This document shows positions 9,296 through 46,886 of a stretch of DNA of 64,000 bases, in pieces; within the stretch, counting starts at the first letter, position 1, and each line of letters opens with the position of its first letter. A model generated the notes under the pieces. The model had not been told where the DNA came from. It saw only the letters and a list, made by a program, of their open reading frames with translations, and ran no database searches. The DNA lies in the NCBI RefSeq assembly GCF_024580145.1, contig NZ_JANINI010000007.1:1-64000 (forward strand), given 5' to 3'. A program made the translations under genes and the position numbers. The DNA is from Methyloversatilis sp. XJ19-49 (lineage in GTDB: Bacteria; Pseudomonadota; Gammaproteobacteria; Burkholderiales; Rhodocyclaceae).

Positions 9296-9313
9296 GACCT
9301 TGAACCCCTTGAA

Positions 9314-9634
9314 TCAGGAAACTGCTTCGACCGGCTGGGCGCAGGCCAGAATCGTGGCATGCAGATGGGAGGTCGCTGCATCGCGACCGTGGCTCGACAG
9401 CAGGCCCAGCAGGACGCGATCGTCGAAGCGCAGGCGGCACAGCATCATGTTGGCGCTGGCCATCTTCAGGACCTGGGCCGGCGACAGCGACTCGATCATG
9501 TCGGCCACTTCTTCGCTGACACCGAGGCGGAACATGGCTGCGTCGCGATCTTCGCGGATCATCTGTTGAGCGAGCATGAGGTAGGCAAGATTCAGTTCCC
9601 TGATCTCGTTGAGCAAACCGGTTGTCTTCATCAT
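9314..9634 (-). CDS. flhD: Flagellar transcriptional regulator FlhD
   Basis: Top-level flagellar regulator acting with FlhC. 106 residues, helical. It has the family signature LNLAYLMLAQQMIREDR near the N-terminus and the conserved Cys in MMLCRLRFDD. Two adjacent ATG codons (9634 and 9631) follow AAGGGA; the second has the better spacing. The 201-bp upstream region carries a 19-bp palindrome and is where environmental control of motility is expected. Confidence 0.95.
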   Translation of the reverse strand: MMKTTGLLNEIRELNLAYLMLAQQMIREDRDAAMFRLGVSEEVADMIESLSPAQVLKMASANMMLCRLRFDDRVLLGLLSSHGRDAATSHLHATILACAQPVEAVS

Positions 9635-9756
9635 GCATTCCCTTCAGTCGGCAGGCACCGTGTGTTTCAGCGCATGGGATGCATTCTGCCCAGCAGGGGG
9701 CCATTGCCCAATCAGGACAAGACGTAAGTTTATGTACGTGAAGACGAGCGGAATCC

Positions 9757-9775
9757 TGTAGGAAGTTTTCCTACA
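9757..9775. promoter_or_regulatory. 19-bp palindrome upstream of flhD, candidate operator
   Basis: TGTAGGAA-GTT-TTCCTACA, arms of 8 bp with no mismatch, centred about 132 bp upstream of the flhD start. The symmetry resembles sites bound by LuxR/FixJ-type response regulators. The binding protein is unknown. Confidence 0.4.
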
Positions 9776-9835
9776 TCGAGGGACCGGGGTCGGGTTGTCG
9801 CGCCGGCCGACGGGCGCGCTGAGCAGGAAATCCGG

Positions 9836-11590: not shown

Positions 11591-11621
11591 TCCAGGTCGT
11601 GTGCACGATCAACGAACCTTA

Positions 11622-11648
11622 ACGACGGCAGGAAAGGAGGGAACTTGA
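11622..11648 (-). promoter_or_regulatory. Candidate sigma-28 promoter for the EAL phosphodiesterase gene
   Basis: Minus-strand TCAAGTTC (11641-11648), 11 nt, then GCCGTCGT (11622-11629). The -35 box differs from that of motA at one base and the -10 keeps GCCGT. The -10 ends 31 nt before the ATG. Confidence 0.6.
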
Positions 11649-11706
11649 GTACCTCGAAACGCGCGGACGGTAAAAATGCCGCTTTTGCCCGGAAATCAGA
11701 CTCCAC

Positions 11707-13635: not shown

Positions 13636-13704
13636 CTTTTTGCCATCGTCCAGGCCCGAACGGCGCGCCGTGCGTCCGTTGCAGAATATGCCTCATGGCA
13701 TCAG

Positions 13705-13732
13705 CTTACGGCGCGGGAGACACGGTTCTTGA
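13705..13732 (-). promoter_or_regulatory. Candidate sigma-28 promoter for the HDOD-GGDEF gene
   Basis: Minus-strand TCAAGAAC (13725-13732), 12 nt, then GCCGTAAG (13705-13712). The TCAA to GCCG distance is 16 nt, one more than at motA, the same as at the cheW and HDOD-GAF elements. It lies about 70 nt upstream of the ATG. Confidence 0.5.
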
Positions 13733-13801
13733 GGGCAAGTGCGCAGGCGACAGGCGGGGCGCTACACTCCGGACTCCTCATTCCGAACAGCCGGTGAACC
13801 C

Positions 13802-14344
13802 ATGAAATTCTGCGCTGACTGCGGCAGCAAGGTTGAACAGCGCGTGCCGGCGGGCGACAACCGGCTGCGCCACGTCTGCCCGGCGTGCGGCACCATCCAC
13901 TACCAGAATCCGCGCATGGTGGTGGGCACACTGCCCGTCTGGGAGGGGCAGGTGCTTCTGTGCAGGCGCGCCATCGAGCCGCGCCTGGGTTACTGGACGC
14001 TGCCCGCCGGATTTCTCGAAAACGGCGAAAGCGCAGCCGACGGTGCATTGCGCGAAACGCTTGAGGAGGCCTGCGCGCGGGTCGCATTGATTGCGCCCTA
14101 CACAATGGTCAGCGTGCCGCAGATCGACCAGATGCACATCCTGTTCCGGGCCGAACTGATCGACACCGATTTTTCGCCCGGCAGCGAATCGCTCGACGTC
14201 CGGCTGTTCGACGAGGCGGACATTCCATGGAACGAACTGGCCTTTCGCAGCGTGTCACTGACCCTGCGCACCTTTTTCGACGAGCGGCGCAAGGGCGGTT
14301 TCGGCGTGCACCACTTCAGTCTGGACGTACCGGGCCGAAGCTGA
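13802..14344 (+). CDS. NUDIX hydrolase with N-terminal zinc ribbon
   Basis: 180 residues. An N-terminal zinc-ribbon has CADCGSK and CPACGTIHYQNPR. The Nudix domain has a canonical box GX5EX7REX2EE (GFLENGESAADGALRETLEE, near residues 75-94), expected to bind Mg and cleave a nucleoside diphosphate-X substrate. The zinc ribbon recalls NADH pyrophosphatase NudC, but the protein is shorter. The actual substrate is unknown. I placed the start at the ATG in MKFCADCG because the open frame upstream lacks family sequence. Its 3' end overlaps the convergent histidine kinase gene by 29 bp. Confidence 0.9.
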   Translation: MKFCADCGSKVEQRVPAGDNRLRHVCPACGTIHYQNPRMVVGTLPVWEGQVLLCRRAIEPRLGYWTLPAGFLENGESAADGALRETLEEACARVALIAPYTMVSVPQIDQMHILFRAELIDTDFSPGSESLDVRLFDEADIPWNELAFRSVSLTLRTFFDERRKGGFGVHHFSLDVPGRS

Positions 14345-16814
14345 AGCTGAAGGTTGCGCCCTGGCCGACCACGCCCTCGGCCGACACATGGCCGCCATGC
14401 AGACGGATCACCCGCTGCACGATCGCCAGACCGATGCCGCTGCCGTCGAATTCACGATTGTTGTGCAGGCGCTGGAAAGGCGCGAAAAGTCGACCTACAT
14501 AGGCCATATCGAAGCCGACACCGTTGTCGCGCACGTAGTACGCCGCCTGGCCCTGCAGCTCTGTTTGCCCGATCTCGATGCGCGGCTGCGCCTGCAGCCG
14601 GGTGAATTTCCACGCGTTGCGCAGCAGGTTCTCGAACACGACGCGGGCCAGTCCGGAATCGGTGTCGGCCCACAGACCTTCCGGAATGACCCAGTGGACG
14701 TAGCGATCGGGTGCTTCGGCGGTCAGTTCGCGCACCACGTCGCGCGCGATGTCGGACAGATTGGTCAGTGAGCGGTGCACCTCGGCACGCGACACACGCG
14801 ACAGTTCCAGCAGGTCATCGATCAGTTCGCCCATGCGCTGGCTGTTGCGGCGGATGCGCGACAGATACTCGCGCCCCTGTTCGTCAAGCAGATCGCCGTA
14901 ATCCTCCACCAGCAGGCGCGAGAAGCCGTCGAGCGCGCGCAGAGGCGCCCTCAGGTCGTGCGACACCGAATAGCTGAACGCCTCCAGTTCGCGGATCGCC
15001 GCTTCAAGCGCTGCAGTGCGCGCGCCGACACGTCGCTCCAGCTCGTCGTTGAGTGACTGCACACCCTGTACATGCTCGGCCTGGATGCGCTCGGCGTCGC
15101 GTTGTGCGGTCATGTCGCGCCGCACCGAGACGATTCCGTTGAACTGGCCGTCATCGTCGGTCAGCGGAATGACGCTGACTTCGAACACCCGTTCCTCGCC
15201 GTCCGGCATGACGAGGCGCTGCTCTTCCCGGTGTGGCTTGCAGGACAGCGCCACCGCTTCGGCGATCTTGTGGTCCTGCTTCAGCACGTCGGCCATCGAC
15301 GGCAGGTGCGCGGCCAGTTCCTCGCTGGTGGCGCCCAGCCAGGCCATCTTCTTCAGCCAGCGCGTATCGAGCAGCGAGCGGTTGGCCAGCCGCCAGCGCA
15401 GGTGCTTGTCCTGCAGCACGATCAGTTCCGGCAGCGCATCGACCAGCGCACGCAGTCTGAATTCCTCCTCGCGCAATGCTTCGCGTGCCTGCATCTCGGC
15501 CGTGATGTCCCGACTGACGCCGCGGTAGCCCGAAAAGACGCCCAGCGCGTCGAATACCGGCTCGCCGGATGAGGCCAGATAGCGCCAGCGCGAACCATCG
15601 CGGCGACGCGACAGGAAGTCACGGAAGGCGTCGTGGCGCTCCAGCGTCTGGCGCAGCAGGCCCCATGGCAGGGTGAGCGCCTCTTCGCCGACAATCTCCC
15701 AGGGTGCGCAACCGTCCAGCTCGGCATCGCCAAAATGCACGCCCGTCAATTGGTCGGGCAGGCGGTGGTAGCGCAGATCTGCGTCGAGTTCCCAGTGCCA
15801 GTCGGCCGACAGCAGCGTCAGCGCGCGAAAGTGCGATTCGCGTTCGCGCAGGGCGCGTCGAGCGGCCTGCTTTTCGAACATCGCGGCGCCGATGAACAGC
15901 GCGGTCGCGGCCGTCAGCGTGATCAGCCCGTGCAACACGAGAATCTGCACGCCCATCGCGTGTTCGTTCAGCAGCGAGGTACCCCGTGCGGTACCGGCCA
16001 GCGCGGTCAGCGATGCGATCAGGAACACCGTCCAGCCGACACGGGGCGGAAAGCGCAACGCGATCCAGATGACCAGCGGCAGCGAGGCATACAGCTGAAG
16101 GATCGGTTCCGCGAGCAGGGTGATGCCGAAGAAGGTTGCCGCCAGCATGCCAAGCAGCGTCAGGATGACCAGCACCTGTTCAATCAGCCGACGCGGCGAC
16201 TGCACCGGCGAGCGATCGGTTGTCCAGGCCAGAAGCGGCAGCATGGACACGACGACGCCCAGCGCGTCGCCGAGCCAGATCGACGCACCAGTATCAAGCC
16301 AGCGGGCCGCGGGCAGATCATGCGCCAGCGCCATGCCTAGGGTAGTGGCTGCGGCACTGATGATGGCCACCGCATAGGCCACAGCCAGCAGCTTGAAGGC
16401 ACCGTCGGTGCGTTCCAGCAGATGCGCCGGTTCGCTGATCAGATGCCGCAGCATGCGCGCCCCCGCCCAGGGCGCGAGTAGCTGTCCGGCCGCGTGCAGC
16501 AGGGCCATCGGTACGGGCAGTTGCGCCAGCGCGGTTCCGGCGATGACACCGATCAGGACGCCTGGCAGCGCACGGTTGCCGAAGTGCAGCAGGACGAACA
16601 GCGCGAGGCCGATCGGCGCCCACATCGGCGTGATGCCCGATGTGTCGCGCAACTGCAGGTTGGCCGCCACGAGCACGCAGTAACCGATTGCGATCAGGGC
16701 ATTCAGCGGAAACGGGCCGAGCAGCGGCTGCAGCGAACCGGGCGGCACGACTTCGGCCGCTGGCGTGCTCGCCTGCGTATCCTGTTCGTGCATTGCGTCA
16801 ACCGGCCGGTTCAT
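14316..16814 (-). CDS. MASE1-PAS-PAS sensor histidine kinase
   Basis: About 832 residues. A MASE1-type membrane sensor of eight or so hydrophobic helices fills residues 35-315. PAS domains follow at about 320-445 and 450-575. A coiled coil leads to HisKA with the phospho-accepting His in SVSHDLRAPLRA (about residue 619). The HATPase has the N box FENLLRNAWKFTR, G1 RDNGVGFD and G2 GSGIGLAIVQRV. There is no receiver domain and no response-regulator gene alongside, so it is an orphan kinase whose partner is elsewhere. The start is uncertain: ATG 16814, a GTG at 16823 and an ATG at 16793 are possible. The 3' end overlaps the Nudix gene. Confidence 0.92.
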   Translation of the reverse strand: MNRPVDAMHEQDTQASTPAAEVVPPGSLQPLLGPFPLNALIAIGYCVLVAANLQLRDTSGITPMWAPIGLALFVLLHFGNRALPGVLIGVIAGTALAQLPVPMALLHAAGQLLAPWAGARMLRHLISEPAHLLERTDGAFKLLAVAYAVAIISAAATTLGMALAHDLPAARWLDTGASIWLGDALGVVVSMLPLLAWTTDRSPVQSPRRLIEQVLVILTLLGMLAATFFGITLLAEPILQLYASLPLVIWIALRFPPRVGWTVFLIASLTALAGTARGTSLLNEHAMGVQILVLHGLITLTAATALFIGAAMFEKQAARRALRERESHFRALTLLSADWHWELDADLRYHRLPDQLTGVHFGDAELDGCAPWEIVGEEALTLPWGLLRQTLERHDAFRDFLSRRRDGSRWRYLASSGEPVFDALGVFSGYRGVSRDITAEMQAREALREEEFRLRALVDALPELIVLQDKHLRWRLANRSLLDTRWLKKMAWLGATSEELAAHLPSMADVLKQDHKIAEAVALSCKPHREEQRLVMPDGEERVFEVSVIPLTDDDGQFNGIVSVRRDMTAQRDAERIQAEHVQGVQSLNDELERRVGARTAALEAAIRELEAFSYSVSHDLRAPLRALDGFSRLLVEDYGDLLDEQGREYLSRIRRNSQRMGELIDDLLELSRVSRAEVHRSLTNLSDIARDVVRELTAEAPDRYVHWVIPEGLWADTDSGLARVVFENLLRNAWKFTRLQAQPRIEIGQTELQGQAAYYVRDNGVGFDMAYVGRLFAPFQRLHNNREFDGSGIGLAIVQRVIRLHGGHVSAEGVVGQGATFSFSFGPVRPD

Positions 16815-33024: not shown

Positions 33025-33231
33025 ATGGATCACCCCCCCGTCCCGCTGTTGCGCGGCAGCCTGCGCGCACTCAAGATCATCCTGCTGACCTTCACCGGCA
33101 TCGGACGCACGCGCATGATCAACCGCACCACCGAAGGACTCGGCCCGCAGCACTTCCTGCTCGGCGGCCTGTTTGCCGCCATCGCGGTGAATGTCGTGCT
33201 GATCGCGCTGGTGATGTGGGCAACGAGCTGA
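33025..33231 (+). CDS. Small DUF2970-like membrane protein
   Basis: 68 residues. An amphipathic N-terminal stretch SLRALKIILLTFTGIG and one C-terminal TM (about 42-65) agree with DUF2970, a family of small betaproteobacterial membrane proteins. Divergent from the DUF2157 gene. Coding is plausible from composition and the family match, but the gene is short. Confidence 0.7.
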   Translation: MDHPPVPLLRGSLRALKIILLTFTGIGRTRMINRTTEGLGPQHFLLGGLFAAIAVNVVLIALVMWATS

Positions 33232-33282
33232 ATCGCCCGGCAGCGCCGACTCACAGCACAAGAGTGTGGGCCAGAGCCCGCG

Positions 33283-33412
33283 TTTGAGCTGTGGTTTTGA
33301 GCTGTGGTTTTGAGCTGTGGTTTTGAGCTGTGGTTTTGAGCTGTGGTTTTGAGCTGTGGTTTTGAGCTGTGGGCTTGAGCTGTGGGCTTGAGCTGTGGGC
33401 TTGAGCTGTGGG
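33283..33412. repeat. 13-bp tandem repeat, ten copies
   Basis: Ten back-to-back 13-mers: six TTTGAGCTGTGGT, one hybrid TTTGAGCTGTGGG, then three CTTGAGCTGTGGG. The last copy runs directly into the GTGGGAGCGG head of the adjacent REPIN-like element. The units are almost identical, so the array is young or actively homogenised. It lies between convergent genes. Confidence 0.92.
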
Positions 33413-33489
33413 AGCGGCGGCCTCGCCGCGATTGATGCCGCGATGATCGTTGATAAACGCGCCGATCGCGGCGAGGCCGCCGCTCCCAC
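33408..33489. repeat. REPIN-like palindrome, family A, copy 3
   Basis: Identical over 82 bp to the element at 29019-29100 apart from one spacer base (TGATAAACG instead of TGATCAACG). Arms 33408-33432 and 33465-33489. It lies 38 bp from the stop of the convergent methyltransferase gene. Confidence 0.85.
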
Positions 33490-33527
33490 AAGACCGCCGC
33501 TCCCGCAGTTCCGCTCCCGCACTACCC

Positions 33528-34717: not shown

Positions 34718-35270
34718 CTACACGATTCGTGCGCGAGCGGCGAATGCAGATTCAGCGACGGCAACGCGCCGACGCGCCACAGCGCCGAGCAGACCCAGGC
34801 CGGCCAGCATCAGGGCCCGGCTTTCGGGCTCGGGCACTGCGGCGGCGAGGGTGTGGCAGATGTTCATGGGATGGCTCCCGGATCGGTGCTCAAAGATTGC
34901 CCCTGGCCCACGGGCCGGTGATGGCCACAGTGATGCCGGGTGTCTGCACGGTCGCGAACAGCACACGGCCGGTCGGGTCGCAGCAGGCGCCGCAGAATTC
35001 GAAGCCGCGATAGTCGCCGGCGGAGGCAATCTTGCCTGCGCTCACAGTCTGGTCGGCGGACAGCGTCAAGTTTTTCTTGCAGAAGATGTAGGCCTCGCCG
35101 GCCGGGTTCAGGCCGAGCAGGCGGTTGCCGCTGCCGCAGGCGTCGGTCACATCGCCGCCGCCCTCGCACAGCAGCACACCGCCGCGCGTGCTGACGGTGA
35201 CGTTGTCCGGATTGTTGCCGGCGGTCTGGTTGCCACTGACGAAGGTGGCGCGTCGCGCACACCGCCGCCA
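34718..35270 (-). pseudogene. Decayed PhoX-like PEP-CTERM gene
   Basis: One frame (about 35265 down to 34890) encodes NNPDNVTVSTRGG, LLCEGGGD, LLGLNPAGEAY and VQTPGITVAITGPW, which match the C-terminal part of PhoX/DUF839 alkaline phosphatases. It ends at a stop. A different frame immediately downstream (to 34718) encodes AAAVPEPESRALMLAGLGLL followed by GAVARRR, a PEP-CTERM tail, and then runs on for 15 residues past the basic end. There is no upstream catalytic region. I read this as a 5'-truncated, frameshifted remnant of an exported phosphatase. Confidence 0.68.
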
Positions 35271-35420: not shown

Positions 35421-36134
35421 ATGAAACACGCTTTGCTGCTCATGGCCTTGCTGGCCGGCACCGCCGGTTCGGCCCAGGCCGAAAACTACGACTTCCGGAC
35501 GTTTGTCGAGTCGAGCTGGGATTACGTCACCCCCCAGGCGCCCGGCGCCCTCTGGGCCGCCCATTACGGCGACCAGGATGGCTCCTTGCTGCCGCCGATG
35601 TCTGCCGCGACGTACGGTTACCCCTGCGGTACGTGTACGCAAACCGGCCAGCTGGTGAATATCGGCGATGCCGCATTTGGCGGGGCGGCCGGCCTGCCGA
35701 CTTTCGACGGCGTGTTCCTGCATCCCGGGCCTTCGGATGCCAGCAGCGTCGCCATCGTGTTCACCGCACCCGAAGACATCACGCTGAACGGCGTGACCGT
35801 GCACGCGGAAATGGTGATCAACGGCCTGAGCAGCAACGGCGTCGATGTAACGGTCAGTCATACCCGCAGTGGCGTGACGACCTCGGTCGGCAGCTTCGTG
35901 GTCAGTGGCGCCGATTACACGCCGCAGGCTTTCAGCTTCGGGTCTGCACCGCTGCAGTTCCTGTCCGGCGACCGCATCACCGTGGATGTCGGCCCGAACG
36001 GCAGCTATCTCTACGACCATCTGAACATCAACGTGGTGACCATGGCCGCTGCCGTGCCCGAACCCGAAACCTGGGCGCTGATGCTGTCCGGCCTTGCCCT
36101 CGTGGGCTTCGGCAGCCGTCGAAACAAGGTCTGA
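35421..36134 (+). CDS. PEP-CTERM sorting domain protein of unknown function
   Basis: 237 residues. Signal peptide 1-20 (cleavage after AQA). A beta-rich mature domain with one Cys pair (YPCGTCTQTG) follows. The C-terminal tail is AAVPEPETWALMLSGLALVG then a basic end (SRRNK), the exosortase signal. After processing it would be released to or anchored at the surface or extracellular polymer. The ATG has AGAGGA 8 nt upstream. No enzymatic motif was recognised. It is separated from the main PEP-CTERM run by argJ on the opposite strand. Confidence 0.88.
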   Translation: MKHALLLMALLAGTAGSAQAENYDFRTFVESSWDYVTPQAPGALWAAHYGDQDGSLLPPMSAATYGYPCGTCTQTGQLVNIGDAAFGGAAGLPTFDGVFLHPGPSDASSVAIVFTAPEDITLNGVTVHAEMVINGLSSNGVDVTVSHTRSGVTTSVGSFVVSGADYTPQAFSFGSAPLQFLSGDRITVDVGPNGSYLYDHLNINVVTMAAAVPEPETWALMLSGLALVGFGSRRNKV

Positions 36135-37453: not shown

Positions 37454-37787
37454 GGGCGGGTCTCGCAGGGGGTAAAACCGCGAGTTTATATGCAGGCTGG
37501 CGCCGATCGCCGGATTGATGTCGCGCACCTCTTACTGCACGCCCGTCACAGGAATTCACCTTCCTTGTAACCAGCGCGAAATCACGCCTCTGCAGGGATT
37601 GTCCGGAAACGGCCCCGCTCCCGCTTTCGGCGGGCCGGCTGCCTGTTGCGAAGCCACGCTGCATGCGGCTGGCGACGCACCATGATCCGAACGGACCAGT
37701 TCACCTTCACGGCACTGCAAAGCGCCCTCCCCAGCCTTCTGCGTGATCCCGGCATCGGCCGGACCGACCACACAGGGGAGATGAACC
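37454..37787. other. 334-bp divergent intergenic region between argJ and a phytase-like gene
   Basis: It should hold promoters for both genes. Visible items: TATAAA for argJ (37485-37490, minus) and a small CCCGC/GCGGG hairpin near 37618-37632. The plus-strand ATG has GGGGAG 7 nt upstream. I found no convincing sigma-54, sigma-28 or Pho box. Confidence 0.5.
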
Positions 37788-39137
37788 ATGAACGCTGATT
37801 TCGCACGTCTGAGCCTCGCGCTCGCGCTGACCGCGGCCTTTGCCGCACCGGCCGCGCACGCCGCCCAAAACACGCTGGCCGGCTGGGCCGTGATGCCGGC
37901 AAACACCTTCTCCGACGGCCCGACCTCGGGCCAGTTTGCCGGCGCCGGCGCCGGTGGCAACCCGCTGCCGCTGATCGACCTGCAGCCGGTGCAGGGCTTC
38001 TCCGGCGTGCTGGCCGGTGCCAACGGCAGTTTCCGCGTGATCTCCGACAACGGCTTCGGCGCGCAGGGCAATTCGGGTGACACCTTGCTGCGCAGCTATG
38101 CAGTTAATGTCGACTTCCGCACCGCGCAGGGTGGCACTGGCAGCGTGTCTGCTGCCGACTGGAACACCGGTGCCTCGCTGCCGGCGTTTTCCGCTACCAG
38201 CCGCATCACGCTGAGCGACCCGAAGAACCTGCTGAGCATCAAGGTTCAGGCCGACTACACGCACTACTACAACAACGCCGCCAACCCGCTCGTGGACGCG
38301 TCGATCAAGTCCGGGCGCCTGCTCACCGGCGCCGACCTGGACATCGAATCGGTGCGTCAGGACAAGAACGGCAACCTGTGGTTCGGCGACGAATTCGGCC
38401 CCTACCTCGTGAAGACCGATGCCAGCGGCGTGGTGCAGCGTCGCGAAATCGCACTGCCCGGCGTGTTCGCGCCGCAGAACGAGGCAGTGCTGAACGGCTC
38501 GGCGACGAGCAACCTCGGCGGCTCCGGCGGTTTCGAAGGCATGGCCATCAACGCCAGCGGCGACAGGCTCTACACGCTGCTCGAAAAGACGGTTGCCGGC
38601 GACCCCGCCAGAAGCCTGCGCATCAATGAGTTCAGCATTGACAGCGAAAGCTACACCGGCCTCGACTACCTGTACCAACTCGAGGCCGAAGGCACGGCCA
38701 TCGGTGACATGACCGCCATCGATGACCACCGCTTCCTGGTGATCGAGCGCAACGGCGGCACCGCCACCCGCGGCACGCCGTTCAAGAAGATCTTCATCGC
38801 CGACACCACCGGTGTTGCCGACGGCGGCCTCGTCACCAAGACCGAACTGGTCGACCTGATGAATATCGCCGACCCGGACGACCTGAACGGCGACGGCCTC
38901 ACCACCTTCACTTTCCCTTACGTGACCATCGAGGACGTGCTCATTCTCGACGCCAACACGCTACTGGTGATCAACGACAACAACTACCCGGGCACGGGCG
39001 GTCGCGACCTCGGCTCCGACCACACCGAGTTCCTGAAGATCAGCCTCGCCAACCCGGTACCGGAGCCCGAAACTTACGCAATGCTGCTGGCCGGTCTCGG
39101 CCTGATCGGCGCAGCCGCCCGCCGTCGTACGCGCTGA
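37788..39137 (+). CDS. Exported phytase-like esterase with PEP-CTERM tail
   Basis: 449 residues. Signal peptide 1-25 (ending AHA). The mature part is the beta-propeller-like phytase-like/esterase domain (PF13449 type) with SDNGFG, GADLDIESVRQDKNGNLWFGDEFGPY, GGFEGMAI, FLVIERNG and a Ca-binding-like loop DPDDLNGDGLTTFTFP. C-terminal PVPEPETYAMLLAGLGLIG then a basic end. It is predicted to hydrolyse phosphoesters outside the cell; the substrate is unproven. Homologous in plan to the genes at 39471 and 42030. Confidence 0.88.
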   Translation: MNADFARLSLALALTAAFAAPAAHAAQNTLAGWAVMPANTFSDGPTSGQFAGAGAGGNPLPLIDLQPVQGFSGVLAGANGSFRVISDNGFGAQGNSGDTLLRSYAVNVDFRTAQGGTGSVSAADWNTGASLPAFSATSRITLSDPKNLLSIKVQADYTHYYNNAANPLVDASIKSGRLLTGADLDIESVRQDKNGNLWFGDEFGPYLVKTDASGVVQRREIALPGVFAPQNEAVLNGSATSNLGGSGGFEGMAINASGDRLYTLLEKTVAGDPARSLRINEFSIDSESYTGLDYLYQLEAEGTAIGDMTAIDDHRFLVIERNGGTATRGTPFKKIFIADTTGVADGGLVTKTELVDLMNIADPDDLNGDGLTTFTFPYVTIEDVLILDANTLLVINDNNYPGTGGRDLGSDHTEFLKISLANPVPEPETYAMLLAGLGLIGAAARRRTR

Positions 39138-39470
39138 GTGTCGCCCGGTCCGCGGTGCAATCCGCTCGCCGACTGACGCGGCCCCTTCCGAGGGACCGCG
39201 TTCGCCGATAAATGAATGAAGACATCGTCGACGGCGAAGCCCGAACGCTCCGCCATTTCAGCGCTGCACAACGCGACACAGGCAGATTTGAATGGTCCGC
39301 ACATCAAATTGGAATGGCTGAAAACACCTCTTTCAGGCGGAGGGCTCGATAGTCCATTCGGCGCAGCCACCCTTCACGTGCTTGTCACTGCCTCGGCCTA
39401 GCCTGCGCAACATCAAATCCTGTGGGGTTCGGACCTTCGTCCGTCGCCCGCAAAAATTCAGGGAGATCAC
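39138..39470. other. 333-bp intergenic region before the PEP-CTERM operon
   Basis: Starts with a hairpin (39176-39199) after the upstream gene. It then contains AT-richer sequence with two near-repeats around GAATGG (39288-39335). The next gene has AGGGAG 7 nt before its ATG. A 61-codon open frame (39216-39401) has no signal peptide or recognisable motif and is not called. Likely promoter of the five-gene run that follows. Confidence 0.45.
39176..39199 (+). terminator. Hairpin after the first phytase-like gene
   Basis: 10-bp stem (CGCGGCCCCT with its complement, one mismatch) and a TCCG loop, 38 bp after the stop codon; no T-run. Confidence 0.45.
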
Positions 39471-40727
39471 ATGAAATGCTCATATGACCGTCGTCCGCTC
39501 GCGCTTGCCTTTGCTTTGGCTCTGGCGAGCTTCGGCGCGCAGGCGGCAGCACCTTTCGAGTTTTCCTACATCGGTCAGCAGATCGTGCCGACCGGCACGC
39601 AGTTCGCGGGCACCACGGTAGGCGGCCTGTCGTCGATCGATTACGTGGCCGGCAGCGGCCGCTATATTGCGATCAGCGACGACCGCTCCGGTTTCAATCC
39701 CGCGCGCTTCTACGAGGTGTCGCTAGATCTGAATGCCTTCGCGCGCTCGGCCACGCCTGGCATGGCCGGCGTGGGTTTCACCGGCGTGACCACGCTGCTC
39801 GACACCTCCGGCGCGGCCTTCGCCACCAATCAGGTCGATCCGGAAGGCATGCGCTACGACGCGACGCGCAACCAGTTGTACTGGAGCAATGAAGGTCAGC
39901 GCTCGGGCGCCGGCTTCCAGAACCCCACCGTGCGCAGCGCCAGCCTTGATGGCACCTACGGTCGTGACTTCGCAGTGCCGGCACGCTACAACCCGGTAGG
40001 CAGCAACAGCGGGCTCGCCGCCGGGGACAGCGGGGTCTACAACAATCTCGCGTTTGAAAACCTCGCGATCTCGACCGACGGCAACACGCTTTACGCCGCC
40101 ACCGAAAACGCCCTCGCGCAGGACAGCCTGCCGGCGACCGCAGCCAACGGCTCGCGCAGCCGCATCCTGTCGTTCGACATCGAAAGCGGCGCCGCCGGTG
40201 CGGAATACATCTACGACGTCAGCCCGGTGGTGTTCGCGCCGAACCCGGCAAACGGTTTCGCGACCAATGGACTGACCGACTTCATCGCTGTCGGCGACCG
40301 CCAGTTCATCACCATCGAGCGCTCGTTCTCGCTCGGCACGCCGGCGAACGGCATTCCGGCAACCGGCAACACGATCCGGCTGTTCTACGCCGACGCGCGC
40401 AACGCGACCGACGTGTCGTCCTTCGATTCGATCGCCGGGCAGACGATCACCGCCGTCAGCAAGACGCTGCTGCTCGACCTGTCGGACCTGAAGAATGACG
40501 ACGGCTCGACGCTGTCGCTCGACAACATCGAAGGCCTCACCTTCGGACCGGCGTTCGATGGCAAGCAGACGCTGATCCTTGCGTCGGACAACAACTTCGG
40601 CGCCACGCAATTCACTCAGTTCATCGCGCTGGAAGTCACCGCCGTGCCCGAACCCGAAACGTACGCGATGCTGCTGGCCGGCCTCGCGCTGACCGGATTC
40701 ATGGCACGCCGCCGCAAGGCGGGCTGA
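39471..40727 (+). CDS. Exported phytase-like esterase with PEP-CTERM tail
   Basis: 418 residues. Signal peptide 1-25 (ending QAA). The phytase-like domain includes GGLSSIDYVAGSGRYIAISD, VDPEGMRYD, FENLAISTDGNTLYAATEN, RQFITIERSFS and LDNIEGLTFGP, with closing SDNNF. C-terminal AVPEPETYAMLLAGLALTG and basic RRRKAG. First gene of a probable operon: the next four genes follow with gaps of 66, 18, 27 and 45 bp. It is closest in motif order to the gene at 42030, suggesting duplication. Confidence 0.88.
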   Translation: MKCSYDRRPLALAFALALASFGAQAAAPFEFSYIGQQIVPTGTQFAGTTVGGLSSIDYVAGSGRYIAISDDRSGFNPARFYEVSLDLNAFARSATPGMAGVGFTGVTTLLDTSGAAFATNQVDPEGMRYDATRNQLYWSNEGQRSGAGFQNPTVRSASLDGTYGRDFAVPARYNPVGSNSGLAAGDSGVYNNLAFENLAISTDGNTLYAATENALAQDSLPATAANGSRSRILSFDIESGAAGAEYIYDVSPVVFAPNPANGFATNGLTDFIAVGDRQFITIERSFSLGTPANGIPATGNTIRLFYADARNATDVSSFDSIAGQTITAVSKTLLLDLSDLKNDDGSTLSLDNIEGLTFGPAFDGKQTLILASDNNFGATQFTQFIALEVTAVPEPETYAMLLAGLALTGFMARRRKAG

Positions 40728-40732
40728 GCCCC

Positions 40733-40758
40733 GGGGCGCGCTGCACCCGGCGCGCCCC
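40733..40758 (+). terminator. Intercistronic hairpin in the PEP-CTERM operon
   Basis: 8-bp stem GGGGCGCG/CGCGCCCC with a 10-nt loop between the phytase-like gene and the glycerophosphodiesterase gene. With no T-run it may be an mRNA stabiliser or partial terminator rather than an operon end. Confidence 0.4.
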
Positions 40759-40793
40759 TCAGGAAGACCGCTGCATCCCCCGGAGAGACACTC

Positions 40794-42011
40794 ATGAAAA
40801 ATCTGGTCACGCTTCGTCCCGCCCTGCTGTGCGTCGCACTGCTGTCCGCGTTCAACGCACCGGCGGCCTTCGCCTGGAACACCCTCGATGGCGCCGCCCC
40901 CATCGTCATCGGCCACCGTGGCGCATCCGGCTACCTGCCGGAGCACACACTGGCTTCGTACGCACTCGCCATCGAGCAGGGCGCGCACTTCATCGAACCT
41001 GATCTGGTGCTGACGAAGGACGGCCACCTGATCGCCCGCCACGAGCCGATACTCGACGGCACGACAAATGTGTCCAGCGTGTTCGACGTCAGCCGCAAGT
41101 CCACGCGACTGCTCGACGGCGTATCCACGACCGCCTATTTCGCCGACACCTTCACGCTGGCCGAAATCAAGACGCTGCGCGCCATCCAGCCGCGCGCCGA
41201 CCGTGACCAGAGCTTCAACGGCCTGTACGAAATCCCGACGCTGGACGAAGTGATCACGCTGGCGCAGTCGAAGGGCGTGGGCATCTATCCGGAACTGAAG
41301 CACTCGGTCTACATGAATGCGCAGGCCGCGAACAACGGCTTTGCTGCGCATTACTTCGAGGACAAGCTGGTCAGCACGCTGCATGCGGCCTACGGCAACA
41401 CGTCCGCCGCGCCGGTATTCATCCAGTCCTTCGAAGTGTCGAACCTGCAGTATCTGAATGGCAAGACCGACATCCGTCTGGTGCAGTTGATGGATGCCTG
41501 GGACGTGAATGCCGACGGCAGCATGGACCTTACGGTGCCGCCGTATGACCGCCCGTTCGATTTCGCCGAAGCGGGTGATCCGCGCACCTTCGGCGACCTG
41601 CTGACCGCAGCTGGCCTCGACTTCATCGCCGGCTACGCCGACGGCATCGGTCCGTGGAAGCCCTATCTGCTGAAGACGGTGGCCGATGGCGTCGAGCGCA
41701 CCGGCGACGGCGTGATCGACGCGCGCGACCGGCTGGTCGAGGGCAGCACCGGCATCGTCGAAGCCGCCCACGAACGCGGTCTGCTGGTGCACACCTGGAC
41801 TTTCCGCGACGACTCGATCGGCTACCAGCTCGGCTATGGCACGCCGGAAGAGGAATACGCCGCGTTCTACGCCCTCGGCGTGGATGGCGTGTTTTCGGAT
41901 CACCCGGACACCGCACTGGCTGCACTGGCCGCCGTGCCCGAGCCCGAAACCTGGGCAATGCTGCTTGCCGGTCTCGGCCTGATCGGCGCAGCTGCCCGCC
42001 GTCGCGCCTGA
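40794..42011 (+). CDS. Exported glycerophosphodiester phosphodiesterase with PEP-CTERM tail
   Basis: 405 residues. Signal peptide 1-27 (ending AFA). GDPD TIM-barrel of the periplasmic GlpQ type: GHRGASGYLPEHT (His41, Arg42, Glu50), FIEPDLVLTKDGHLIARHEP (Glu68, Asp70, His83), so the catalytic and metal residues are intact. C-terminal AVPEPETWAMLLAGLGLIG plus a basic end. GlpQ normally frees glycerol 3-phosphate from deacylated phospholipids; here the enzyme would act at the surface. GGAG lies 8 nt before the ATG. Operon context with other phosphoesterases. Confidence 0.93.
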   Translation: MKNLVTLRPALLCVALLSAFNAPAAFAWNTLDGAAPIVIGHRGASGYLPEHTLASYALAIEQGAHFIEPDLVLTKDGHLIARHEPILDGTTNVSSVFDVSRKSTRLLDGVSTTAYFADTFTLAEIKTLRAIQPRADRDQSFNGLYEIPTLDEVITLAQSKGVGIYPELKHSVYMNAQAANNGFAAHYFEDKLVSTLHAAYGNTSAAPVFIQSFEVSNLQYLNGKTDIRLVQLMDAWDVNADGSMDLTVPPYDRPFDFAEAGDPRTFGDLLTAAGLDFIAGYADGIGPWKPYLLKTVADGVERTGDGVIDARDRLVEGSTGIVEAAHERGLLVHTWTFRDDSIGYQLGYGTPEEEYAAFYALGVDGVFSDHPDTALAALAAVPEPETWAMLLAGLGLIGAAARRRA

Positions 42012-42029
42012 GCAACCGGAGACAACGAA

Positions 42030-43205
42030 ATGAAAAAGACCTTGCTGGTGGCCCTGCTCGCCACCTTTGCCGGCCACGCGCCGGCGGCCGATTTCTCGCT
42101 GCGCGTCATCGGCGAGCAGCGCATCGCGACCGGCACGCTGTTCGAAGACGTCGAGTTCGGCGGCATTTCCGGGCTCGACCGCGCCGCCGACGGCCGCTAC
42201 TGGGCGATTTCGGATGACCGCGGCGGCGAGCGCGGCACGCCGCGCTTCTACAACCTGTCGCTCGATTACGACGCTGCCGGCTTCAACGGCGTCACCGTGA
42301 ACAGCCAGACCTTCATGCAGCGGCCGGACGGCTCGACCTTCCCGTCGAACGCGCGCACGGTCGATCCGGAAGGCATCCGCGTGGCGCCGAACGGCAATCT
42401 GTACTGGTCGTCGGAAGGCAACTGGAACAGCAACGCGGCCAGCCGCTACCAGCCCTTCGTGCGCGAAATGACGACCTCGGGCGTCTTCGTGCGCGAGTTC
42501 GCGACGCCGGCGATGTTCAACTACGTCGACAACGCCACCACCGGCGGTCGCAGCAACAAGCTGTTCGAGGCGCTGACGGTGGCGCCCGGCGGCACGATCT
42601 GGACCGCCAATGAAGACGCGCTGGTACAGGACGGCCCGCTCACATCGATCAGCAACGGCAGCGTGGTACGCGTGACCGCGCTTGATCCGGTCAGCGGCGT
42701 GGCCGGTGCGCAATATGTATACGCACTGCCGCCGATTCCGGTCGATGCCGTGCCCGGCGCGCCGTTCGGCCCGGACAACGGCCTGCCGGAACTGCTGGCA
42801 ATTTCCGACACGCAGTTCATCGCGGTGGAACGCGCATTCGCCTTCGGCGTGGGCAACACCATCCGTCTCACATTGGCCGAAATCATGCCGGACACGACCG
42901 ACGTCAGCAGCTTTGACAGTCTGGCCGGCGCGACCTACACGCCGATGCGCCGCGAGCTGCTGCTCGAAATGCCGATCACCTTCGAAGGCATCACGCTCGA
43001 CAACATCGAGGCGATCAGCTGGGGCCACACGCTGGCCAATGGCAACCGCACGCTGGTGCTGGCGGCCGACAACAACTTCAGCGGCACCCAGGTCACGCAG
43101 TTCATCGCGCTCGAAGTGTCAGCCGTGCCCGAACCCACCCGCATCGTGCAGTTTCTCGCCGGCCTCGGCCTGATGACGCTGACGCTGCGCATGCGCCGTC
43201 GTTGA
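42030..43205 (+). CDS. Exported phytase-like esterase with divergent PEP-CTERM tail
   Basis: 391 residues. Signal peptide 1-19 (ending APA). Phytase-like domain with GGISGLDRAADGRYWAISDD, VDPEGIRVAPNGNLYWSSEG, FEALTVAPGGTIWTANED, FIAVERAF, LDNIEAISWG and AADNNFSG. Its tail reads AVPEPTRIVQFLAGLGLMTL then RMRRR: PEP and the basic end are kept, but the residues after PEP differ from all neighbours. GGAG 8 nt upstream of the ATG and an 18 bp gap to the preceding stop. Confidence 0.88.
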   Translation: MKKTLLVALLATFAGHAPAADFSLRVIGEQRIATGTLFEDVEFGGISGLDRAADGRYWAISDDRGGERGTPRFYNLSLDYDAAGFNGVTVNSQTFMQRPDGSTFPSNARTVDPEGIRVAPNGNLYWSSEGNWNSNAASRYQPFVREMTTSGVFVREFATPAMFNYVDNATTGGRSNKLFEALTVAPGGTIWTANEDALVQDGPLTSISNGSVVRVTALDPVSGVAGAQYVYALPPIPVDAVPGAPFGPDNGLPELLAISDTQFIAVERAFAFGVGNTIRLTLAEIMPDTTDVSSFDSLAGATYTPMRRELLLEMPITFEGITLDNIEAISWGHTLANGNRTLVLAADNNFSGTQVTQFIALEVSAVPEPTRIVQFLAGLGLMTLTLRMRRR

Positions 43206-43232
43206 GACGCCACCCATAAAGGAGTTTACGAC

Positions 43233-44627
43233 ATGAAATACGCCCTCACCCCGATCGCCCTTGCACTGCTGGCCACGGCCGGCGCCGCGCAGGCGGAAAC
43301 CGTCCGTTTCGCAACCTTCAACGCGTCGCTGAACCGCGACGCCGCCGGCCAGCTGCTGTCCGATCTCGCCAACCCGGGCGCAGTCGGCGTCACAGCCAGC
43401 GTCGCCAACCGCATCCAGCAGGCGCGCAACGTGGCCGAAATTGCACAGCGCGTTCAGGCTGACGTACTGCTTGTGAACGAATTCGACTTCGACCTCAATG
43501 GCATGCCAACTGCCAGCAGCGTGCCGATGGGCCTCGGTTATTCGAGCGAAGGCGCACGCCTGTTCCAGCAGAACTTCCTGTCGGTCGGTCAGGGCAATGC
43601 GGTGCGCGGCGCAACCAGCGGCATCGATTACGCATACCGCTACACGCCCAACACCAATACCGGGCTGGCGTCCGGCTTCGACCTGAACAACAACGGCGTG
43701 GTCAGCGGCGGCGACGATGCATTCGGCTTCGGCAACTACGGCGGCCAGTTCGGCTTCACGATCTACTCGAAGTACGAAATCGTCGGCGTGCGCAGCTTCC
43801 AGAACTTCCTGTGGAAGGACATGCCGGGCAATCTGCTGACCAATGACCCGACTGCCAACAAACTCGCCGATTTCTACTCGCCGGCCGAGATCGACGCGCT
43901 GCGCCTGTCGTCGAAGAACCATGTCGACGTGACGGTGCGCATCAACGGTCAGGACGTGCATTTCCTGACCGCCCATCCGACGCCGCCGACCTTCGACGGC
44001 GCGGAAGACCGCAACGGCAAGCGCAACCACGACGAAATCCGATTCTGGTCCGACTACGTCAATGGCGCCGGCTACATCTACGACGATCAGGGCGGCACAG
44101 GCGGCCTGGCTGCGGGCGCGAAATTCGTCATCGCCGGCGACTACAACGCCGACCCGTTCGACGGCGACAGCTATCAGGGTGCTATCAACCAGCTGCTGGG
44201 CGACCCGCTGGTGAATACCACGCTGACCCCGGCGTCGGCCGGCGGCACCGCCGCGGCGACCTACCCGAGCAACAACGGCACGGCCAACCAGTCGCACGCC
44301 GGCGACCCGCAGTACGACACCGCCGACTTCAGCGATTCGGCACCGGGCAATCTGCGCGTCGATTACGTGCTGCCCTCGGCCAACCTCGAAATGACCGATG
44401 CCGGCATCTTCTGGCCGGTCGATCCGGACACGTCGGTGCCGAACACCACCGGCGACCTGTTCGATCTGGTCGGCACCTTCCGCGACCCCAATCTGTACGC
44501 CAATCTGGCCAGTTCGGACCACAAGGCGGTGTGGGTCGATGTGACGGTCGTGCCGGAGCCCGAAACCTACGCAATGCTGCTGGCCGGTCTGGGTCTGATC
44601 GGCGCCGCCGCCCGCCGTCGTCGCTGA
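43233..44627 (+). CDS. Exported endonuclease/exonuclease/phosphatase-family protein with PEP-CTERM tail
   Basis: 464 residues. Signal peptide 1-21 (ending AQA). EEP-fold catalytic residues are all visible: FATFNAS (Asn), DVLLVNEFDF (Glu), FLTAHPTPP (His), IAGDYNADPFDGDSY (Asp/Asn) and SSDHKAVWVDV (Asp-His). A loop FDLNNNGVVSGGDDAFG resembles an EF-hand/dockerin calcium site. C-terminal VVPEPETYAMLLAGLGLIG and RRRR. It may cleave extracellular DNA or phospholipid head groups; the family does not settle which. AAGGAG lies 8 nt upstream of the ATG. Confidence 0.9.
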   Translation: MKYALTPIALALLATAGAAQAETVRFATFNASLNRDAAGQLLSDLANPGAVGVTASVANRIQQARNVAEIAQRVQADVLLVNEFDFDLNGMPTASSVPMGLGYSSEGARLFQQNFLSVGQGNAVRGATSGIDYAYRYTPNTNTGLASGFDLNNNGVVSGGDDAFGFGNYGGQFGFTIYSKYEIVGVRSFQNFLWKDMPGNLLTNDPTANKLADFYSPAEIDALRLSSKNHVDVTVRINGQDVHFLTAHPTPPTFDGAEDRNGKRNHDEIRFWSDYVNGAGYIYDDQGGTGGLAAGAKFVIAGDYNADPFDGDSYQGAINQLLGDPLVNTTLTPASAGGTAAATYPSNNGTANQSHAGDPQYDTADFSDSAPGNLRVDYVLPSANLEMTDAGIFWPVDPDTSVPNTTGDLFDLVGTFRDPNLYANLASSDHKAVWVDVTVVPEPETYAMLLAGLGLIGAAARRRR

Positions 44628-44672
44628 CACCCCATTACCCGGATTTCAATCCAGAACCAGAGAGGTCAGATC

Positions 44673-45389
44673 ATGAACATGCTCAAAACGCTCACCGCAG
44701 CCGTCCTGTCCGTCGCCGCCCTGTCCGCCCACGCGGCAGACGTGGAAGCCTTCCAGAACGCCACCGTGCAGCCGGGCGGCGTGCGTACCGGTGGCAGCGG
44801 CATCAACTTCTTCAACGTCGAAGGCGCAGACTTCGGCAGCTTCGCCTCCTACGGCGTGGTGCGCTTCGATATCGCCTCGCTGAAATCGCAGTTCGACGCG
44901 CAATACGGCGTCGATGGCTGGGTGGTGGACAGCATCAGCCTGTCGCTGACCCAGTCGAACGCCTCCTTCACCGCCAACGGCGCAGTCGACGTCCATTTCA
45001 CCGGCAACGATTCGATCAGCATCGTCTCGCCGAGCCCGCTGCAGTATCCGTTTGCCGGCGATTTCGCGGATGCGCAGCAGATCCTGAGCTACACCTTCAC
45101 CGAGATCGCCAGCGGCACACTCGAAACCTACAGCCTGTTCAACCGCAGCGCCTCGAACAACGCGGGCGCGCAGGCTCTGGCAGCGGACATCCTGTCCGAT
45201 TCGCGGGTGACGCTGGCGCTGGTCGAGGGCGACAGCGGCGTCGCCGCAACCTATGCCGGCTACAACAACAACACCTATGCCGGCCCCACGCTGAGCATCG
45301 AGGTGACTGCGGTACCGGAAGCCGACGGCTGGGCGATGCTGCTGGCCGGCCTGGGCCTGATTGCTGCGATGACGCGGCGCCGCATGTGA
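44673..45389 (+). CDS. PEP-CTERM-type protein with VPEADG tail
   Basis: 238 residues. Signal peptide 1-21 (ending AHA). Beta-rich mature domain beginning DVEAFQNATVQPGG with a FDIASLKSQFDAQYGVDGWVVD segment; this resembles carbohydrate-binding or DNRLRE-like structural domains but I cannot assign it. The tail AVPEADGWAMLLAGLGLIA then MTRRRM is the PEAD variant of the sorting signal. Last gene of the run; a strong hairpin follows. Confidence 0.85.
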   Translation: MNMLKTLTAAVLSVAALSAHAADVEAFQNATVQPGGVRTGGSGINFFNVEGADFGSFASYGVVRFDIASLKSQFDAQYGVDGWVVDSISLSLTQSNASFTANGAVDVHFTGNDSISIVSPSPLQYPFAGDFADAQQILSYTFTEIASGTLETYSLFNRSASNNAGAQALAADILSDSRVTLALVEGDSGVAATYAGYNNNTYAGPTLSIEVTAVPEADGWAMLLAGLGLIAAMTRRRM

Positions 45390-45425: not shown

Positions 45426-46886
45426 CTAGGCCTTGCGCGACGACGCTTCCAGCGCGATGCCGGCCAGCTGGGCGAAGGTCGCGAGGGCCTCCGTCGTGCC
45501 CGGACGCATCGCCGGGCGCACCGCAGCGCGATCGATGTACAGCAAGCCCACGACGTGACCGTGCGCGTTGATCGGCACCAGCACCTGGTGTCGCTGGCCC
45601 AACGCGGAGCGCAGGCGCGTGATGGACGGCAATCCCGGGGCGGGCACGTGTGACGCCTCGACGTCGATGACGCGTCCGTGATCGACCAGTTCGGTCAGCG
45701 CATCGCGCGCAGCGCCGGCGAGCAGGAAATTGAAGTGGCGCATCAGTTGCTGCGCGCCGCGGCCATGCGTGGCCCGGGCCGTCAGCTGCGAGCGGTTGGC
45801 GGTGACCAGTGCGAGCACGGCGCGGTCGGCGCCCAGCGAGCGGCCGGCGCCTTCGAGCGCCAGGTCGAGCACCGCGCCGGAAGCCGAGTGCGCGGCAATC
45901 AGCGCCACCATGCGGCGCGAAATGTCGAACTGCAGCGCCGGATCCGGGTCGGCCAGAATGTCCGGCGCCCCGGTTTCGTCTTCCTCGTCGGGACGCGCCG
46001 GCACCGGGATGCGCGCTGCGGCCTCTTCGCAACCGTAAAAGCCGGCCAGGCAGGCTGCTTCGCGCGCGTGCGCGGCGACCACCGGCGCAACGGCTGCCAC
46101 GTCCTGCCGCAACAGTTTCGCGTAGTCGCGCACGGCTTCACGCGCCTTTTCGCTTTGCCATCCGGCTTCGGCAGCACTGGCGAGCCGGTAGCTGGCGATC
46201 ACCAGCGCTTCGCGGCTGTCTGACCGCGCGGTGTCCACACAGGCGTTCGCCACCAGCCCGGGCAGCGTCCATTCGCGCGCCAGCAACTGGGTCAGCGAAC
46301 GCAGCCGGAAGCCAAGCACCTCGCTTTCGACCTTTTCCGGTACGGCAGCGGGCTTGCGCAGTGCGCGATCAAGCTGCTGACCCGCTTCCCCGGAGAAGCA
46401 CCAGAAGGCCAGTTCGCCGATGCGCGACAGCAGCGTCGCGATGAACACTTCTTCCGGCGAGGCGTCGCCGCGCACCGTGGCGGCATGCTTTGCATGGACG
46501 GCCGCATGAAAGCAGCGCGCCATTTCGGCGCTGACCCGGTCGCGTACGCCACCGGCCAGGAAAGCGTCGATCAGCGCGACAGAGATCGCGATGTTGCGCA
46601 CGGTGTCGAAGCCGAGCAGCACGATGGCGCGCGAAATGGTGTTGATACGGCTGCCTTCACCGTGGAAGAACACGGAATTGGCCATGCGCAGCACGCGCGC
46701 GGTCATGCCGGCATCGCGCAGGATGATGCGGCCGAGTGCCGACGTCGGACTGGCGTCGTTCTCCGCGACCTCGCCGATGGCGGCCAGCGTCGCGCTGAAG
46801 ATGGGCATGTCCTGATTGCGCAGCTTGTCCACCCAGACCTCGAGTGGATCGGTGGCAACGGGTGTGGCGCTCATATGCGTGTCCAT
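45426..46886 (-). CDS. HDOD-GAF signalling protein
   Basis: 486 residues. HDOD domain in the first ~270 residues (IFSATLAAIGEVAEND, RVLRMANSVFF, ISRAIVLLGFDTVRNIAIS), then an acidic linker (DEEDETGAPD) and a GAF-like domain (about 340-480) ending LVPINAHGHVVGLLYIDRAAVRPAM. There is no enzymatic output domain, so it probably acts by protein contact or ligand binding. A sigma-28-like promoter lies just upstream, linking it to the motility cascade despite being 37 kb from flhDC. Start ATG 46886 or 46874. Confidence 0.87.
   Translation of the reverse strand: MDTHMSATPVATDPLEVWVDKLRNQDMPIFSATLAAIGEVAENDASPTSALGRIILRDAGMTARVLRMANSVFFHGEGSRINTISRAIVLLGFDTVRNIAISVALIDAFLAGGVRDRVSAEMARCFHAAVHAKHAATVRGDASPEEVFIATLLSRIGELAFWCFSGEAGQQLDRALRKPAAVPEKVESEVLGFRLRSLTQLLAREWTLPGLVANACVDTARSDSREALVIASYRLASAAEAGWQSEKAREAVRDYAKLLRQDVAAVAPVVAAHAREAACLAGFYGCEEAAARIPVPARPDEEDETGAPDILADPDPALQFDISRRMVALIAAHSASGAVLDLALEGAGRSLGADRAVLALVTANRSQLTARATHGRGAQQLMRHFNFLLAGAARDALTELVDHGRVIDVEASHVPAPGLPSITRLRSALGQRHQVLVPINAHGHVVGLLYIDRAAVRPAMRPGTTEALATFAQLAGIALEASSRKA

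Follow-up and report, generated by a model that had tools for sequence, protein, structure and literature searches.

The PEP-CTERM/exosortase system reported in Haft 2006 (PMC1569441) combines an N-terminal leader, a C-terminal PEP-CTERM tail and exosortases. In the excerpts available of that paper, as of the other sources cited below by accession, the function of PEP-CTERM cargo is mostly unknown, enzyme homologues are rare (fewer than 10% of the proteins match any Pfam family), more than 65% of the genes form single-gene operons, and a sigma-54 type motif is described, further DNA motifs remaining to be discovered. Leader, tail and exosortases are all present in Methyloversatilis sp. XJ19-49, in which we describe six genes within a 64,000-nucleotide stretch (the window, C43:1-64000 of a 4.10 Mb genome in 45 contigs, C1-C45). 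In contrast to the pattern of Haft 2006, enzyme genes here stand in a row, and their DNA element is another one, a palindrome. The cluster probably encodes exported phosphoesterases that liberate phosphorus from organic material on the outer side of the inner membrane.

Several other systems invite comparison. ZepA, a PEP-CTERM exoprotein in zinc acquisition whose genes also have palindromes upstream, is a single zinc-binding protein rather than an enzyme set (PMC10957091), and its precedent lowers any claim of a first nutritional role for PEP-CTERM cargo. The phosphorus-starvation exoenzymes PhoX, PhoD and GlpQ of Pseudomonas are likewise a secreted phosphoesterase set for organic phosphorus; phosphate control is shown there, whereas the window set is known from its sequence (PMC5082522). 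Fused phosphoesterases of Mojavia (L180; labels of this type denote loci cut from the own genome or from relatives' genomes), Nostoc (L160, L175, L178), Crocosphaera (L170) and Coleofasciculus (L150), and nsp6490 and nsp7010 of Nodularia, which excerpts report as induced by phosphorus limitation, resemble the window in using PF03372, PF13449 and PF03009 together. The cyanobacterial fusions are single large proteins, mostly with RTX or DUF4114 ends, whereas the window has separate PEP-CTERM genes and no PF02333. Beta-propeller phytases (PF02333) share a beta-propeller model with the window proteins and are fused to PF13449 in the scanned fusions, whereas the window proteins match PF13449 instead. 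Secreted EEP nucleases with a C-terminal sorting tail are also known from the GlyGly-CTERM/rhombosortase system, for example Shewanella ExeM; the window uses another sorting system, and several enzymes rather than one. The enzyme families, like the sorting system, are all known; what is new is the arrangement as an exosortase-tagged cluster, which may be viewed as a counterpart of the fused cyanobacterial exoenzymes, 'dismembered' and tagged for exosortase. Literature searches covering few subscription journals found no paper that joins PEP-CTERM, phytase and exosortase, none that links Methyloversatilis with PEP-CTERM, and none on PEP-CTERM with alkaline phosphatase and phosphate limitation.

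Gene layout, enzyme families and sorting tails

The open reading frame (ORF) list gives six back-to-back genes, all on the + strand, spanning 37788-45389 (lengths in amino acids, aa):

37788..39137, +, PHY1, phytase-like protein, leader plus PEP-CTERM tail, 449 aa (PF13449, 180.6 bits)
39471..40727, +, PHY2, phytase-like protein, leader plus PEP-CTERM tail, 418 aa (PF13449, 265.4 bits)
40794..42011, +, GlpQ-type glycerophosphodiester phosphodiesterase (GDPD) with PEP-CTERM tail, 405 aa (PF03009, 142.1 bits)
42030..43205, +, PHY3, phytase-like protein, PEP-CTERM tail degenerate, 391 aa (PF13449, 257.1 bits)
43233..44627, +, EEP-family phosphodiesterase-like enzyme (EEP) with PEP-CTERM tail, 464 aa (PF03372, 72.9 bits)
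44673..45389, +, STR, small PEP-CTERM protein whose tail is its sole Pfam match, 238 aa
36212..37528, -, argJ, conserved cluster border and synteny anchor (PF01960, 472.7 bits)
45426..46886, -, HDOD-GAF gene, conserved cluster border and synteny anchor (PF08668, 117.4 bits)
35421..36134, +, PEP-CTERM protein of unassigned function on the far side of argJ, 237 aa

Enzyme-family proteins make up five of the six genes (PF13449 three times, GDPD and EEP once each), and Pfam thereby confirms the three phytase-like, one GlpQ-type and one EEP protein named in an earlier sequence-only reading of this DNA. That reading had also counted two structural PEP-CTERM proteins in the run; STR stands, and the second (35421-36134) lies outside the six-gene span, beyond argJ. 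Genes 2-6 are separated by 18-66 bp, so that a single operon is plausible for them; 333 bp separate gene 1 from gene 2.

In a Pfam scan of the window proteins (E up to 0.01), PHY1, PHY2 and PHY3 all scored far above the PF13449 cut-off of 27.6 bits. No window protein matched the beta-propeller phytase family PF02333 at that threshold, and an identity of the PF13449 proteins as true phytases was rejected; phytate, which the earlier reading listed among the targets, is a possible substrate of these proteins. The AlphaFold2 model of PHY2 (mean pLDDT 89.9) drew mostly beta-propellers from Foldseek, none of them close (TM-score normalised to query length at most 0.36 among the best 50 of 738 matches), and neither PHY2 nor EEP gave a significant match to the sequences of solved structures. 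The acidic residues D123, E125, E141, E196, E212, D218, E283 and D373 of the PF13449 propellers are invariant across 43 sequences, which suggests a metal site.

GDPD residues 29-376 align with the E. coli GlpQ structures 1t8q and 1ydy, with H41, E68, D70, H83 and E167, which we take to be catalytic, at matching places. Among 33 aligned rows of relatives, H41, E68 and D70 are kept wherever ungapped (26 rows), E167 is present in all 33, and H83 is His in 26, Gly in five and a gap in two. The GDPD profile and the catalytic His/Glu/Asp set place the protein among the GlpQ-type enzymes; it lies below the cut-off of the NCBIfam equivalog PRK11143 (148.7 bits against 254). In EEP, residues N30, E83, D196, H243, H248, D303, N305, D429 and H430 are conserved at 1.00 over 85 rows, some of them duplicates. 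Its structure model (mean pLDDT 85.6) matches EEP-fold enzymes and, with the PF03372 match and the N/E/D/H set, places it in the family.

The PEP-CTERM profile PF07589 (cut-off 20.7 bits) is exceeded in genes 1, 2, 3, 5 and 6, at 38.1, 33.1, 35.5, 36.2 and 22.9 bits. The C-terminus of PHY3, AVPEPTRIVQFLAGLGLMTLTLRMRRR, shows by eye the PEP, hydrophobic stretch and basic end, and has no Pfam score. A hydrophobic leader, also judged by eye, begins all six proteins. The earlier claim of signal peptides and tails throughout thus holds by profile for five of the six tails, the PHY3 tail being degenerate and unscored. A profile search of the own genome (4.10 Mb) gave 68 PEP-CTERM matches, or about 0.13 expected per 7.6 kb against five here (Poisson probability about 3e-7 for one stretch of that size), and two exosortase matches (PF09721, 252.1 and 246 bits). 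From tail profile and exosortases together, the cluster proteins are predicted to be exosortase cargo. Matches on C15 and C16 share a constant 1059-base offset, which suggests a duplicated or doubly assembled segment. Elsewhere in the window, at about 33030-33490, the frames spell a recurring SSKPQLKTTAQNH-like unit, a short tandem DNA repeat.

Relatives, fusions and PhoX neighbours

The genus sample comprised 13 genomes, namely the window and 12 sister loci, from related and hence not independent species. At least one PF13449 gene stands between argJ and the HDOD gene in all 13. PHY3 occurs in 11, the rest of the cluster content varying between species; PHY1 is the first cluster gene in the window and nine of the 12 sister loci, a second GDPD is present in L070, L071 and L072, and STR relatives follow EEP in L074-L077, L144 and L148. 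The cluster is also carried by M. thermotolerans and M. discipulorum (L141, L142). A search for EEP with an E-value limit of 1e-20 was positive in 12 of the 297 genomes of the family, two of which belong to other genera.

Tails of relatives were scored by regular expression in 14 loci (the 12 genus loci, L078 and L079) and were present in 44 of 45 cluster genes: PHY1 9/9, PHY2 3/3, PHY3 9/10, GDPD 8/8, EEP 11/11 and STR 4/4. A differently composed cluster occurs in L143, from the metagenome-assembled genome Hydrogenophilales bacterium RIFOXYD1_FULL_62_11, where PhoX with a PEP-CTERM tail, GDPD, EEP with a tail and PhoD with a tail are consecutive on one strand (6654-13264); the GDPD there is untailed and its sequence contains a run of N. 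The sequence-only reading had staked its claim on these families co-occurring with PEP-CTERM tails elsewhere, and both these loci and L143 provide such cases. The L143 EEP is 77% identical to that of the window, so that the two clusters are not unrelated; the EEP genes have a common origin, even if their surroundings are arranged in another way. Betaproteobacteria bacterium Ga0077523 (L147) has EEP next to a PHY2-like protein, and the regular expression finds a tail on each. Untailed pairs in other genera are GDPD followed by PhoX (L233) and PF13449 followed by GDPD (L222).

Among the best 80 of at least 575 EEP relatives, 76 loci (L143-L218) yielded 69 EEP ORFs, seven loci giving none in the ORF finder; 36 of the 69 also matched the phytase-like queries and 33 were EEP alone. 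Seven hand-picked fusions from cyanobacteria and Reyranella (L180, L196, L160, L175, L178, L170, L150) were scanned. All seven unite EEP, PF13449 and the true phytase PF02333; GDPD is added in L180, PhoD in L170 and SurE in L178, and six of the seven carry RTX repeats or DUF4114. The Nostoc linckia protein of L178 (10025-17143) has 2372 aa, with EEP, PF13449, phytase, two SurE stretches and RTX repeats. In Nodularia, nsp6490 is described as a GDPD with two GlpQ domains and a phytase domain (PMC3610870), and nsp7010 as an atypical alkaline phosphatase with 'esterase-like activity of phytase family', i.e. of PF13449 type (PMC9846622). The phosphorus-limitation RNA-seq table of the latter report gives 4.63/5.45 for nsp6490 and 5.53/3.82 for nsp7010 in its first two value columns, the units and column heads lying outside the excerpts, and genes of this kind rank there with the most strongly induced (PMC9846622). 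Pho boxes are listed for phoA and nucH (PMC1906773).

PhoX adjoins argJ in four of the 12 sister loci (L072, L075, L076, L220), some loci possibly being too short to include it. In the window the corresponding spot holds remnants:

34893..35252, -, PhoX gene remnant, last 120 aa only, 79-82.5% identical to the argJ-side PhoX of sisters
34766..34861, -, tail remnant of a small PEP-CTERM gene, 75% identical over 32 aa to L142

The PhoX remnant is 70% identical to C3 PhoX, and in sister species a small PEP-CTERM gene comes after PhoX, as the tail remnant does here. The most economical interpretation is that the window once had a PhoX gene beside argJ, which has since decayed. A second region of the own genome, on C3 (L046, + strand), carries PhoX, two other genes (one of them on the opposite strand), a PF13449-PEP-CTERM gene, PhoX and a PEP-CTERM protein. 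A PhoX-family protein with its own PEP-CTERM tail (67.5 bits) is encoded on C42, and PF05787 (PhoX) has seven rows in the own genome, including a match on C8 and a fragment on C9.

A palindrome upstream of PEP-CTERM and PhoX genes

Comparison of upstream regions revealed a palindrome common to PHY1 and PHY2; a weak direct repeat also precedes PHY2:

37682..37698, +, palindromic operator candidate ATGATCCGAACGGACCA, 106 bp upstream of PHY1
39349..39365, +, palindromic operator candidate ATAGTCCATTCGGCGCA, 122 bp upstream of PHY2
39371..39388, +, weak direct repeat resembling a Pho box, CCTTCACGTGCTTGTCAC, also conserved ahead of PHY2 in L070, L071 and L073

The pattern ATNRTCCRNNCGGNNNA, built from the PHY1, PHY2 and two C3 PhoX sites, was reshaped to TNRTCCNWWCGGNNNA to admit a fifth place, on C1. 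Counting palindromes on both strands, TNRTCCNWWCGGNNNA has 21 strand matches at 17 places in the own genome, against six strand matches of the reversed pattern. PEP-CTERM or PhoX genes lie downstream of nine of the 17: PHY1, PHY2, the two C3 PhoX genes, the tailed PhoX of C42, PEP-CTERM genes of C12 and C23 (two sites), and, if its start is MFRK, an SdiA-regulated-type PEP protein on C1. These sites thus head PHY1 and PHY2, three genes of PhoX type and another three that encode PEP-CTERM proteins, at distances of roughly 70-150 bp and in one case 244 bp; the C12, C42 and C23 places are independent of pattern building and reshaping. A tenth place lies ahead of an ExbB(DUF2341)-ExbD-TonB-Porin_5 operon on C23, and the other seven have no PEP-CTERM or PhoX gene adjoining within the 3-kb locus. 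The palindrome-headed genes are considered a putative regulon. The sigma-54 type motif of Haft, looked for by eye, is not put forward as the upstream element.

Matches to TNRTCCNWWCGGNNNA occur in all 13 genus genomes (202 strand matches against 69 for the reversed pattern), a count that, like those that follow, overstates the number of events because the species are related. Of 25 sister sites (L298-L322), 12 are placed at the 5′ end of a frame, which encodes PhoX in eight cases, PHY1 in two and a PEP-CTERM protein in two; frames were taken from stop to stop with start codons not fixed. On a score with a maximum of 16, at least 11 was reached upstream of 10 of 14 PHY1/PHY2 heads (L075, L076, L077 and L220 falling below), and at least 12 upstream of all 10 PhoX genes in the scored loci. 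None of 29 GDPD, PHY3 and EEP genes and none of three C3-type PF13449 genes reached 11; a PHY1-like gene at another locus (L237) scored 10, and random 250-nt stretches of the same loci reached 11 in 157 of 3000 cases.

In L286 (C23:312000-328000), the perfect palindrome TAGTCCGATCGGACTA heads a gene series at 5313-15795 that encodes a fusion of ExbB with DUF2341 and a lectin domain, then ExbD, TonB and Porin_5, a PEP-CTERM protein, an orphan of 514 aa and a transporter of ShlB type. This operon is possibly the uptake arm of the palindrome regulon. The L143 upstream sequence TATGCCAAACGGCTCA looks by eye like the Methyloversatilis palindrome, the pattern itself having no match there.

The Pho box pattern CTGTCATNNNNCTGTCAT, allowing three mismatches, has 150 matches in the own genome against 77 for its reversed form, and among about the first 100 places listed the best site precedes the C3 phytase-like gene. 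That PF13449 gene has the Pho-box-like repeat GTGTCACCAAGCTGTCAC shortly upstream of its start, and a sister (L236) has three half-sites in tandem. The repeat CCTTCACGTGCTTGTCAC has two mismatches to a degenerate repeat, a quality equalled in 19 of 600 random 550-nt stretches, and a weak repeat of this kind also precedes PHY1 in L075, L076 and L220. Upstream of pstS (C44), neither a distinct repeat, on visual inspection, nor a close Pho box match was seen. A classical Pho box is not claimed as the switch of the cluster, the site before PHY2 being weak and the window having none at three mismatches or fewer. On C45, GTGTCATGCAACTGTCAC (L047 3216-3233) has two mismatches, one of three such sites among the matches listed, and starts 76 bp upstream of a 942-aa PEP-CTERM protein with PATR repeats (L047 3292-6120).

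Proposed function and rival explanations

We infer activity, substrates, exosortase sorting, location and inducing signal from protein families, tails, conserved residues, synteny, fusions, the PhoX neighbourhood and the common motif. Each cluster protein would be made with a leader and a PEP-CTERM tail; once the exosortases had removed the tail, the protein would probably end up on the cell surface or in the exopolysaccharide. The predicted substrates are glycerophosphodiesters for GDPD, nucleic acids or further phosphodiesters for EEP, and phosphomonoesters or esters of the phytate type for the PF13449 propellers. PhoX, encoded at other loci and, in sister species, next to the cluster, would round out the set. 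The PHY1 and PHY2 heads are probably co-expressed with the PhoX genes, because the palindromic operator candidate is common to both. Phosphorus scavenging is favoured because PhoX adjoins the cluster in sisters and has left a remnant in the window, because tailed PhoX and PhoD stand with GDPD and EEP in L143, because fusions unite EEP and PF13449 with true phytase, GDPD, PhoD and SurE, and because phosphorus limitation induces such proteins in Nodularia, so far as the excerpts report (PMC9846622). The earlier idea of a phosphate-mining set is supported on these grounds, in a looser form, GDPD being present in only five of 13 genus genomes.

A number of observations count against phosphorus scavenging by exosortase-sorted enzymes. 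Within the genus, GDPD is limited to five and EEP to 10 of the 13 genomes, and the EEP model resembles nucleases, TDP2 and sphingomyelinases. The activity of any PF13449 protein was not found in the literature, as far as the available excerpts go. All 10 GDPD relatives of other genera (L222-L233) are untailed, so that the tail was gained or lost lineage by lineage; the PhoX adjoining the cluster is untailed in four of four sisters and both C3 PhoX proteins lack a PEP-CTERM match, so that part of the proposed set would not be exosortase cargo. With regard to control, the window has no match to CTGTCATNNNNCTGTCAT at up to three mismatches against 3.8 expected, and the Pseudomonas study found no evidence of PhoBR control over the phytases there (PMC5082522). 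Neither the C8 PhoX match and C9 fragment nor the C3 PF13449 gene has a site among the 17 palindrome places, and the palindrome also stands upstream of PEP-CTERM proteins lacking a phosphatase domain.

The last point, and the lack of a canonical Pho box in the window, would also fit enzymes that remodel the cell's own matrix or obtain carbon and nitrogen from DNA and lipids outside the cell, with phosphorus freed as a by-product; PEP-CTERM systems are moreover reported to accompany the production of exopolysaccharide and flocs (PMC1569441; PMC9850573 by its listing). Phosphorus release agrees better with the fusions to phytase, PhoD and SurE, with the PhoX and PhoD clusters and with the induction of relatives by phosphorus limitation, and we regard matrix or feeding roles as rather improbable. 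It is somewhat easier to imagine, though still unlikely, that the PF13449 propellers are structural or binding proteins and that catalysis falls to GDPD and EEP, since the PHY2 model is a generic propeller lacking a specific match in the PDB, and PF13449 activity is presumably attributed through the family name alone. The metal-site-like invariant acidic residues and the fusion of PF13449 to true phytase and GDPD speak for catalysis, as does the naming of a PF13449-type Nodularia protein as an atypical alkaline phosphatase in the excerpts (PMC9846622). The differing gene content between species and the wealth of PEP-CTERM genes in the own genome might also reflect unrelated PEP-CTERM genes piled up at one insertion-tolerant locus, an explanation rendered very improbable by the joining of the same families in single proteins of cyanobacteria and Reyranella and by their clustering with PhoX and PhoD in L143.

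Beyond phosphorus release by exported phosphoesterases, a wider and distinctly more tentative proposal is that Methyloversatilis has a surface-bound 'phosphosome'. Exosortase-tagged phosphoesterases, PhoX and the ExbB-ExbD-TonB-porin operon might form one palindrome regulon (half-site ATAGTCCG) under an undescribed regulator acting instead of or besides PhoB, which would deploy enzymes, matrix proteins and uptake jointly on the exopolysaccharide.

A clear enzymatic theme in PEP-CTERM cargo would widen the nutritional role exemplified by ZepA from zinc to organic phosphorus. The common palindrome makes the putative regulon open to immediate testing, and the cyanobacterial fusions and the tagged separate genes offer a natural comparison between two ways of keeping enzymes together. 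Phosphorus-scavenging cargo would give a measurable phenotype and connect the biofilm matrix with phosphorus cycling.

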